In this document: in pieces, positions 49,713 to 52,622 of the stretch
Layout of the letters: every line of letters starts with the position of its first letter
How positions within the stretch are numbered: the first letter of the stretch is position 1
DNA from: Planctomycetota bacterium
GTDB taxonomy: Bacteria; Planctomycetota; Phycisphaerae; Phycisphaerales; UBA1924
DNA: 64,000 nt
NCBI GenBank assembly: GCA_030950285.1
Contig: JAUZRR010000001.1
Span: 1 to 64,000 of the forward strand
Direction: 5' to 3'
The notes under the pieces: model-generated
Database searches by the model: none
What the model saw: only the letters and a program-made list of their open reading frames with translations
Told to the model about the DNA's origin: nothing
Program-made: the position numbers and the translations under genes

Positions 49713-50918
49713 CTACCGATTGATGTCTCTGCCGCGCGAGCCGGAGATGGTGTGCATCACGGGATCGGCGCCGCTCTTATGAAACGATCCGGGCCAATCG
49801 CCTTCTCCGGTTGGATAGGGAGGTCCCAAAAAGGCATCGGCAACTCGAAACTCTGCACTGCCATCAACACAGGCGATCCCCTGCCGCTCGCCGGGTTCGA
49901 CCGACGGAATATCGTCTTTCCACACGATCTCGCCGTCGTTGGGAGCAAAGTACACCCCCTTGGAGCTTGGAAAGTCGACCTCATAAGCCCGGACCGCCCG
50001 CCATTGGTCTGGCCCGGTCCGGCGTTCCTGCTCCCAGAAACTGCTTCCCGCGAGGAATGTACACGAGTACAGATAATCGGTCATCACATACGAGGGTGAT
50101 GTCAGCGGAGCAAAGAAGGATTTATGAAGGAGTTGCCCTTCGTAGTACTCCGGGGCCAAGGCAAAGTTCCAAAATGCATGGGCATCGAAGTAGCTCAGGC
50201 GAAGAATCCTGTTCTCATGCCGAAAGATCGTGTAGGTCACTTTTGGATCGGTGAAAGCAGGGAACGTGTCGTCCCAATCGCCAAGATACGCATTGATCGT
50301 CTGCCCGTGGGAGCGGAGATTTGTGGTTGAGACAACCTCCCGGGCGCTGTTTCTTGCTCGGCCCAGTGCCGGTAGGAGCAGGGCAACAAGCAACCCGAGA
50401 ATCGCTATCATGAGAATCAGTTCAAGAAGCGTGAACGCCCGCCGAGTGTTCGTGCCAGCCGCAGCAAGAGGGCGCCCGCCCCCCCGATCCCGCACACGGC
50501 CGAGCAAGGCATCCGCCGTCAGCATTGCAAGAAGCACGCCGTTTCTGACGAGCACAAAGGTCGTGCTGCTCTGGAGTTCATGGAAGACCGCGAGTCTGCC
50601 GAGGCAGCCGCAGTCCGGTACCTTTCCCGTCATCCACTGCACCGAGTAGGCTACGGCAAAGATGACAAGCAGCGAGGCCATGGCACCGGCCATGAGCCGC
50701 CTTTGAATCCTAAGAAGCCACATGCCACCCACAAGAACCTCAAGCGGCGGCACCGTGTAGAGCGCAACCCACTTGACCGCAAAGGGCAGAACTGCCCACT
50801 CAGAAAGACTCTCGGCGAAAGCCGGCAGGTCCGCGAGCTTCGCGACACCCGCAAACGCCATGAAGACCGCCACGGCACCCGTCAAGAACTTTGCCGGATG
50901 TCGTGGCGTGTCATCCAT
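49713..50918 (-). CDS. MauE-like redox membrane domain fused to a complete pseudopilin
   Basis: A 401-residue fusion in one uninterrupted frame. Residues 1-142 form a four-helix MauE/DoxX-like domain (helices about 11-30, 47-68, 76-96, 120-142) with VAKLAD, the PPLEVLVGG motif and Cys103-Gly-Cys105 in the loop between helices 3 and 4. A basic linker (RVRDRGGGRP) leads to a full prepilin signal, TRRA/FTLLELILMIAI, with Phe162 at +1 and Glu166 at +5, then a pseudopilin body ending in a VDGSAEF DG motif near residue 370. Even helix number places the prepilin leader in the cytoplasm, as prepilin peptidase requires. Cleavage would release two products. Ala instead of Gly at -1 is a caution. Confidence 0.82.
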   Translation of the reverse strand: MDDTPRHPAKFLTGAVAVFMAFAGVAKLADLPAFAESLSEWAVLPFAVKWVALYTVPPLEVLVGGMWLLRIQRRLMAGAMASLLVIFAVAYSVQWMTGKVPDCGCLGRLAVFHELQSSTTFVLVRNGVLLAMLTADALLGRVRDRGGGRPLAAAGTNTRRAFTLLELILMIAILGLLVALLLPALGRARNSAREVVSTTNLRSHGQTINAYLGDWDDTFPAFTDPKVTYTIFRHENRILRLSYFDAHAFWNFALAPEYYEGQLLHKSFFAPLTSPSYVMTDYLYSCTFLAGSSFWEQERRTGPDQWRAVRAYEVDFPSSKGVYFAPNDGEIVWKDDIPSVEPGERQGIACVDGSAEFRVADAFLGPPYPTGEGDWPGSFHKSGADPVMHTISGSRGRDINR

Positions 50919-50952
50919 GAGTTGCTCTTTCCATAAAGCGAATACCGGTTGA

Positions 50953-51335
50953 TCAGTTGCAAGAGGCGCCGTCCGGCTGCTCACACGCAGCCGCATAGGT
51001 GCGAAGCACACCATCTGTCTCGCACCCGTTTTCGCCCACCACGCGCTTGTAGTACTTGCAGTTCACAGTGAAATTGTTCGGAGGTCCCGAAAGGCCGAAC
51101 GACCTGAACTTCACCGACGGACAATCGCCATCTTCAATGAAATCATCTTTGCAGTTAAGGTCGTCAGGCACTTTGCTGCATGCTGTCACCGTCGGGCCTT
51201 CGACAAGACAGGATGGATTTCCTCCCCCGGGGCCGTCACCCGCAAAGGCCGCGAAGGGAAGGCACCCAGTATCATCGGAAACGCAACGAATGCTCCGAAA
51301 GGGAATAACCGCAAGGCAGTGCTGTACTGTTTCAT
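50953..51335 (-). CDS. Small secreted Cys-rich protein, apparently frameshifted
   Basis: Two overlapping frames make one probable product. From ATG 51335 (GGAG upstream) a signal-peptide-like start MKQYSTALRLFPFGAFVAF is read, but this frame stops at 51186. The frame ending at 50953 encodes a mature-looking segment with eight spaced cysteines (PSCLVEG, TACSK, NCKDD, DCPS, NCKYY, GCETD, ACEQ, ASCN) but lacks a start. They would join by a shift near 51240-51290. It may be a pseudogene, a base error or programmed frameshifting. It lies 34 bases before the MauE-prepilin gene, whose redox domain could form its disulfides; that link is inference. Confidence 0.55.
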
Positions 51336-51403
51336 CCTTCAGTCTCCAAAGAGAGTTCCGTAAAACGCCGCCCGCCCGGCGCAAGGCAGCTGTATACTTC
51401 CGA

Positions 51404-52576
51404 TCATCGACCAACACTCGAGCGCCCGACACGCACCCACAGCAGCGCCCCAACCATTACAACGAGTGTTGCCCAGCCAATCCAGCGCAGGGTGTTCGAA
51501 GCGCGCGGCTTTGCACTTGACGTCTCGGCATAGAGCAGATTTTGAGATTCGTCCAACCACTGAACTTCATCACGTCCGGTCCGCAGATCACTAACCTTGG
51601 ATATGGTGACCACTCCTCGAACCGGATCCTCGCCAGCGATGTCCGGGATCGAGATAGCTCGCCGAACAACCTCATCCGAAACCCTCTCCGCGCCGAGATA
51701 TCTTGTACTCTTCATCGGGCGGTGGTCGAGTTGCTTCGCCGCACGAGCCGCGATCCAAACCCCAACATCTCTATTATAGGACCAGTCTTCAAAGTACCAT
51801 TCTGATGCGCTTGACGGCTCGCCGTTAGTCTTTCCGATGAATGCAACGGAGGTAACAAATCCCCGCCCGGCCGCAGAATCCCAACGCCCACGCCATTCAC
51901 CTATAACTCCGCCAGAGTTTACGGCCTGCGCGATCCACACATCGTTCTGAATACTTATGAGAGTTGGCGTGCTTTCCTGGAACCACCCGAATGCAAAGTT
52001 GCCGAAGACCAAAGAGTTCCATACCGATCGTATCACTTCGGTCCCGCGTTCAGCGAAGCGACGTTTCACCTCGGCCTCATGCTCGGCGTCGACCAGAGTG
52101 AGTTGCTGCTTTGACATCCCCCACACCAGAGCGCCGGAGCGCGCCGTGTCCCAGTAGCCCCCTTCATCTCCGGTGTATTCCAGTGACTGTGAAAGGCGCC
52201 ACTGGTCTTCAGAACTGTACCACACCTTGTGAACGGTTCGATCCGGTCCATGTGCAAGACGGCGTTCATAGATTTCCAGGTCCTGACGCATCGGATGGTC
52301 GGGGCGGTTTCGGACTTCTGCTCGCAATGCACGAATTTCAGCTGCTGTAGGTACTTCGACAACATCTACAACATATTCAAGAACAATATCAGGAGGAAGT
52401 TGTGCATCTGCCGCGTTGGCCCACTCCGCACGAAGCCAAGCCTCTACCGTCTCCCTGTCCACACTCTGCGCCTGCGCTGCCGAAACCGGGGCAGCCAAGA
52501 TCGTCGCTGCGCCAACGAGAAGGAGTACGGCTGTCCCACAAAGAGGCATTCGGCTTCGGAAAAGCATGCTCTTCAT
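51404..52576 (-). CDS. Secreted protein with C-terminal membrane anchor, function unknown
   Basis: A 390-residue protein. Residues 1-37 are a signal peptide (MPLCGTAVLLLVGAATILAAP within it, ending near AAQAQS). The ectodomain has Trp-rich beta segments (KVWYSSEDQWRLSQSLEYTG, NFAFGWFQESTPTLISIQND, ASEWYFEDWSYNRDVGVWIA). One helix WIGWATLVVMVGALLWVRVG near 366-385 anchors the C-terminus, followed by a few basic residues. No family recognised. It heads a three-gene minus-strand cassette of lower GC than its surroundings, and a (GA)14 tract lies 16-46 bases upstream of its start. Confidence 0.7.
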   Translation of the reverse strand: MKSMLFRSRMPLCGTAVLLLVGAATILAAPVSAAQAQSVDRETVEAWLRAEWANAADAQLPPDIVLEYVVDVVEVPTAAEIRALRAEVRNRPDHPMRQDLEIYERRLAHGPDRTVHKVWYSSEDQWRLSQSLEYTGDEGGYWDTARSGALVWGMSKQQLTLVDAEHEAEVKRRFAERGTEVIRSVWNSLVFGNFAFGWFQESTPTLISIQNDVWIAQAVNSGGVIGEWRGRWDSAAGRGFVTSVAFIGKTNGEPSSASEWYFEDWSYNRDVGVWIAARAAKQLDHRPMKSTRYLGAERVSDEVVRRAISIPDIAGEDPVRGVVTISKVSDLRTGRDEVQWLDESQNLLYAETSSAKPRASNTLRWIGWATLVVMVGALLWVRVGRSSVGR

Positions 52577-52591
52577 GCCCCAAGTCTAACA

Positions 52592-52622
52592 GAAGAGAGA
52601 GAGAGAGAGAGAGAGAGAGAGA
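52592..52622 (+). repeat. (GA)14 dinucleotide microsatellite
   Basis: An uninterrupted GA tract at 52595-52622 with a preceding AGAA, reading (TC)n on the coding strand. It lies 16-46 bases before the ATG of the secreted-protein gene, where promoter or leader signals would be. Confidence 0.95.

Follow-up and report, generated by a model that had tools for sequence, protein, structure and literature searches.

The 64,000-nucleotide stretch of planctomycete DNA analysed here (the window) raises a question about gene content and composition: why do genes for an anchored secreted protein, a small cysteine-rich protein and a MauE-prepilin fusion lie together in a segment that differs from its surroundings? 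A first-pass annotation of the window had placed three co-directional minus-strand genes with short gaps of about 68 and 34 bases at 49713-52622, and this arrangement was found as claimed (Table 1). The compositional contrast with the flanks was likewise real: the GC content over this segment was 0.572 compared to a mean of 0.661 in the 2.9-kb windows outside it (sd 0.016), the lowest of which reached 0.618. Lower GC than in the flanks was found in all 40 of 40 cassettes of the family described below, with a mean difference of -5.5 points. The promoter repeats, the frameshift in gene 2, the empty site in the sister genome and the other copies in the genome, all reported here, go beyond that annotation.

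Table 1. Positions of the features recognised at the three-gene locus of the window.
Feature	Position	Strand	Basis
Gene 1	51404..52576	-	ORF; homologues; 390 aa
Gene 2, Cys-rich secreted protein, frame-disrupted	50953..51336	-	three-frame translation; conserved Cys
Gene 3 first part, MauE domain	50436..50918	-	Pfam MauE; hydropathy; motif
Gene 3 second part, pseudopilin	49713..50435	-	motif + helix; N_methyl below cut-off; alignment
(TC)14 repeat, promoter-spacer position just upstream of gene 1	52594..52622	-	
Putative -10 element TAGACT	52583..52588	-	six bases 5' of gene 1 ATG
Segment missing from syntenic site of same-genus genome G001	49691..52795	no strand	

Gene 3 as a whole (49713-50918, minus strand) encodes 401 residues, and its earlier description as a MauE-prepilin fusion was upheld by a match to Pfam MauE (PF07291) at 2.4e-20 (73.6 bits, curated cut-off 27) together with the prepilin motif RRA/FTLLE. 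The MauE part has four predicted membrane helices and a CGC at residues 103-105 between helices 3 and 4; a CxC was found in 106 of 112 MauE ORFs. Hydropathy gave the four MauE helices followed by a pilin helix, and five helices were counted in 54 of 72 fusions. The pseudopilin begins at F162 of the motif, with a putative prepilin peptidase site before this residue, and the class III prepilin signal (AFTLLE in the window) precedes the hydrophobic helix. Among relatives the motif was present in 127 of 142 pseudopilins, while the N_methyl score in the window was 17.1 bits, under the Pfam cut-off of 21.2. If the N-terminus is inside, this predicted topology would put the CxC on the periplasmic side of the membrane and the cleavage site on the cytoplasmic side, where prepilin peptidase works. 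The fusion is therefore probably a precursor from which two products arise, MauE and a pseudopilin. The whole genome contained 13 T2SSE-type and 6 secretin matches. One secretin match (L183, G000:C17:58777-59274) was located inside an open frame of 4685 codons.

For gene 2 an eight-cysteine secreted product had been described. The eight cysteines of the mature part are indeed there, but gene 2 is not one reading frame. Three-frame translation placed the signal peptide MKQYSTALRLFPFGAFVAFPMILGAF in a frame that starts at ATG 51336 and soon meets a stop, and the eight-cysteine part, from 50953 to about 51250, in a different frame. The two parts share one frame in nearly all relatives examined, and the window copy of gene 2 thus carries a frameshift, either real or due to an assembly error. 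It is not the sole broken copy, as the Cys-rich gene of L096 (G007:C111) has an in-frame stop directly after a Cys-Cys pair. In L099 the Cys-rich gene was absent altogether and MauE was kept.

The Cys proteins of the window and 35 relatives (n = 36) have six near-invariant cysteines and one glycine in common, and little else. Scans of the Cys protein against Pfam, NCBIfam and PADLOC turned up no convincing hit, no family being matched, and its predicted model (pLDDT 90) had no significant structural match. PDGF/VEGF entries, which would point to a cystine-knot growth factor fold, recurred among the matches of this model at a strength too low for use (E above 1, Z about 4). A lipoprotein reading was abandoned, because the residue preceding the first mature cysteine varies and the protein therefore has no lipobox. 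As regards a RiPP leader-core precursor, only an ordinary signal peptide was seen.

The product of gene 1 has an N-terminal signal and a C-terminal transmembrane anchor, in agreement with its earlier description as an anchored secreted protein. Pfam, NCBIfam and PADLOC scans of it gave nothing convincing. Its predicted model (pLDDT 88) matched LolA3 in Foldseek with an E of 2e-6 and LolB with a VIA Z of 11.7 over 221 residues at 5.8 A. The predicted fold is LolA/LolB/RseB-like, a half-barrel with a helical lid, and gene 1 differs from that superfamily by its C-terminal transmembrane anchor, an identity of about 10% and its lack of recognition by Pfam. Nothing was found to support the suggested receptor or effector role of the anchored protein. 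Within the sensitivity of the searches, neither viral contigs nor plasmids yielded a gene 1 relative.

The locus is not alone in its genome. In the 3.1 Mb genome to which the window belongs, ten MauE matches were detected, nine of them in cassettes that also encode an anchored protein and a small secreted protein rich in Cys; in most of these a pseudopilin is fused or lies close by. Three of the nine were of the same kind as the window locus (type A). Type B displays another order, with the Cys-rich protein (about 90 aa) followed by an N-anchored protein (about 290 aa) and the MauE-pseudopilin. Homology to gene 1 was not detected by single-sequence comparison in the anchored proteins of other cassette types. 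The tenth MauE (L011, G000:C21) is a stand-alone gene whose neighbours, read by eye, we take to be DUF1573 and rhodanese-type genes; it probably belongs to a separate system.

Homologues of gene 1 were present in 17 of 61 genomes (its own and 60 relatives) and in 69 of the 163 genomes sampled from its GTDB family (Phycisphaerales). In a phylum-wide sample of 392 genomes, with few candidates scored per genome, they were seen only in the own genome and one other of the same family, and a scan of genome contigs gave a single locus, in a Phycisphaerales MAG. Around 42 gene 1 loci, MauE was found in 38, a pseudopilin in 41 and a downstream Cys-rich ORF in 36, counting the broken one of the window; the corresponding numbers at 56 further loci outside the profile-building set were 46, 56 and 48. 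The co-occurrence of the three genes that had been predicted from the window thus held strongly, in dozens of genomes, with pooled counts for the 98 loci of 97 (pseudopilin), 84 (MauE) and 84 (Cys gene). With this result and the compositional contrast, the annotation withstood the refutation that it had itself specified. MauE and the Cys gene were present or absent together: both occurred at 81 loci, MauE alone at 3, the Cys gene alone at 3 and neither at 11 (Fisher 1e-9, a nominal value since the loci are related and not independent). This joint occurrence supports the part of the first-pass annotation that saw the two as a possible enzyme and its substrate. In nearly all close-pair comparisons dN was lower than dS, with the Cys protein often the least conserved part, and pair-specific co-divergence of the Cys protein with the pseudopilin or MauE was not seen.

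The upstream regions of the cassettes contained simple repeats. In the own genome a repeat was located upstream of all nine cassettes, and (GA)8 occurred at only two sites in that genome, one at the window cassette and one at a type B cassette, in each case immediately ahead of the first gene. Across the wider collection a simple repeat was found at most 200 bp upstream in 50 of 114 cassettes (0.47 expected). A loose promoter scan told little, as shuffled sequence gave a rate of 0.82, and a strict motif was used instead: TTGAC(A/T), 14-24 bases and TAnnnT. This motif was detected in 53 of 118 cassettes (0.57 in shuffles), and in 35 of the 118 a repeat lay inside the -35/-10 spacer so defined (0.01 expected in shuffles). 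Tract length differed between close relatives: the orthologous promoters of L247, L250 and L260 had near-identical flanks and tracts of 9, 9 and 11 G, respectively.

In the window itself, the distance of TAGACT from the gene 1 ATG was the commonest one in type A promoters. No -35-like hexamer was found at 15-22 bases in the window promoter, and for this reason the window copy, with the number of repeats that it now has, is probably off. Taken with the broken Cys gene, the missing hexamer indicates that the copy may be silent or decayed. In type A promoters, including that of the window (52576-52588), the putative -10 usually precedes the start codon by six or seven bases, so that gene 1 mRNAs may be leaderless. 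The octamers (ATGGCTCG)4 of L112 and (GGCTCGAA)3 of L241 were found downstream of the -10 and near the start codon, a position from which they could switch the reading frame instead of the promoter spacing. Away from the cassettes, a heptamer repeat, (GGGGGTT)5, is located at 27093-27127 of the window, a few bases past the stop of a minus-strand ORF (27134-29890, 918 aa) that resembles a PEP carboxylase.

Isolate SJ83, a Phycisphaerales MAG, is a relative from the same genus. In the same-genus genome G001 the two genes that flank the window cassette, a putative M32 carboxypeptidase and a putative subtilase by our reading, are adjacent and 90 and 86% identical to their counterparts. Homology to G001 stops at window position 49690 and restarts at 52796, two points that are 86 bases apart in G001. 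The cassette is thus present in one genome and absent from the other at one syntenic site, by a gain here or a loss in G001.

The gene linkage, the tendency of the Cys gene and MauE to be present or missing together, the prepilin and CxC motifs, the LolA-like predicted fold, the spacer repeats with their length differences, the low GC and the presence or absence at one syntenic site can be read directly from the sequences, and from them we infer switching, delivery and a biological role. The three genes of the window would belong to a phase-variable family of cassettes, with multiple copies, in a family of the Phycisphaerales, in which a variable disulfide-rich protein is matured and delivered by a dedicated pseudopilin, a reading that we consider about evenly poised between right and wrong. 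Its steps may be depicted as follows: Slippage in the spacer repeat would turn the cassette promoter on and off. The Cys-rich protein would be exported, and the MauE domain, with its CxC loop toward the periplasm, would form its disulfides. Prepilin peptidase would cut the fusion into MauE and pseudopilin, and the latter might join a type II secretion or type IV pilus machine of the cell and present or export the Cys-rich protein. The anchored LolA-like protein could act as a membrane-tethered chaperone for one of the cassette partners. As a result, the set of disulfide-rich proteins at the surface or outside would keep changing in the population. A further extension is put forward more tentatively and with less than an even chance: that the cassettes form a stochastically switched, multi-locus system of secretion or display, in which every cassette has its own disulfide catalyst and pseudopilin, made as a single precursor that prepilin peptidase cuts, and a divergent protein on a six-Cys scaffold, which would yield combinatorial surface ligands.

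Other functions were weighed against this proposal. The cassettes might be antibacterial, encoding a disulfide-stabilised bacteriocin that is matured by MauE and exported by the pseudopilin, the producer being protected by the anchored LolA-like protein. Such a role would suit a Cys-rich secreted product that is small and divergent, has a membrane-anchored neighbour and occurs in many copies per genome. The only published precedent that was found counts for this role as well as for the preferred reading: among Streptomyces RiPP clusters predicted by decRiPPter, a MauE homologue adjoins a precursor of at least eight cysteines (PMC7794033). Those clusters differ in being computational RiPP predictions from another phylum, and a pseudopilin or switchable promoter is not mentioned in the excerpts of that paper that were available (PMC7794033). 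The distances of gene 1 and the Cys protein were also correlated, if weakly (rho 0.20, p 0.0025). However, 11 of the 98 loci keep gene 1 and the pseudopilin without a Cys gene, which is odd for a toxin-immunity pair, and slippage-switched promoters are better known from surface structures. We regard the bacteriocin function as unlikely.

The loci without a Cys gene speak for a different division of labour, in which the pseudopilin and the LolA-like protein are the working core, as an accessory of a pilus or secretion system, and the Cys protein and MauE are optional and have an unrelated role. The pseudopilin is nearly constant at gene 1 loci (97 of 98), and the Cys gene and MauE are jointly missing from 11. 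Shorter cassettes of gene 1 and pseudopilin, with neither Cys gene nor MauE, were recorded at L234, L238, L248, L257, L261, L263, L265, L114 and L098, and some of these also bear promoter repeats upstream (e.g. L234, L257 and L114). As about one in nine gene 1 loci lack the Cys gene and MauE, the core role may be something other than delivering the Cys protein. Against this division of labour stands type B, whose cassettes retain the Cys gene, MauE and pseudopilin but have no detectable homologue of gene 1, so that the parts shared between types are these three. A pseudopilin and LolA-like core with an optional Cys protein is judged distinctly unlikely.

A third function, that of a structural or catalytic subunit matured by MauE in the manner of the methylamine dehydrogenase light chain and serving metabolism or envelope redox balance, appears very improbable. 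Methylamine dehydrogenase requires both MauE and MauD, and the disulfides in its small subunit have, by way of speculation, been ascribed to MauE (cited in PMC7794033). The cassettes resemble methylamine utilisation loci in the membrane domain, which scores above the Pfam cut-off and adjoins a Cys-rich secreted protein. They contain no MauD, dehydrogenase or other large catalytic subunit, however, and in most of the type A and B loci examined the MauE is fused to a pseudopilin. The Cys proteins matched no family, and many divergent copies with switchable promoters would be unusual for an enzyme subunit. That the genes are chance neighbours or a compositional artefact, for which the disrupted frame of the window Cys gene might speak, has next to no chance of being true, being already refuted by the linkage, with a gene order that recurs in dozens of genomes and dN below dS in nearly all comparisons.

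The preferred reading, a phase-variable family of secreted-protein cassettes, has partial counterparts elsewhere. Promoter-spacer phase variation is known from the hif fimbriae of Haemophilus and from porA and opc of Neisseria. The cassettes resemble these in that a repeat prone to slippage lies between -35 and -10, that a genome has several contingency loci and that the products are probably at the surface. They differ in belonging to another phylum, in repeats that are mostly poly-G/C and stand ahead of a MauE-pseudopilin, and in switching that is predicted from sequence. With the pseudopilins of type II secretion and type IV pili they have the class III cleavage motif and N-terminal helix in common, whereas the cleavage site comes only after about 160 residues of MauE and each cassette has one dedicated copy. 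The literature searched contained no paper that joins MauE, prepilins and planctomycetes, and among the titles and abstracts on phase variation with planctomycetes apparently none dealt with such switching in the group. The proposed variable secreted-protein system is apparently undescribed so far. If the proposal is true, a largely uncultured environmental lineage would diversify its secreted disulfide-rich proteins through slippage of promoter repeats, and the MauE-pseudopilin fusion would be a compact link from disulfide formation to pseudopilus delivery.
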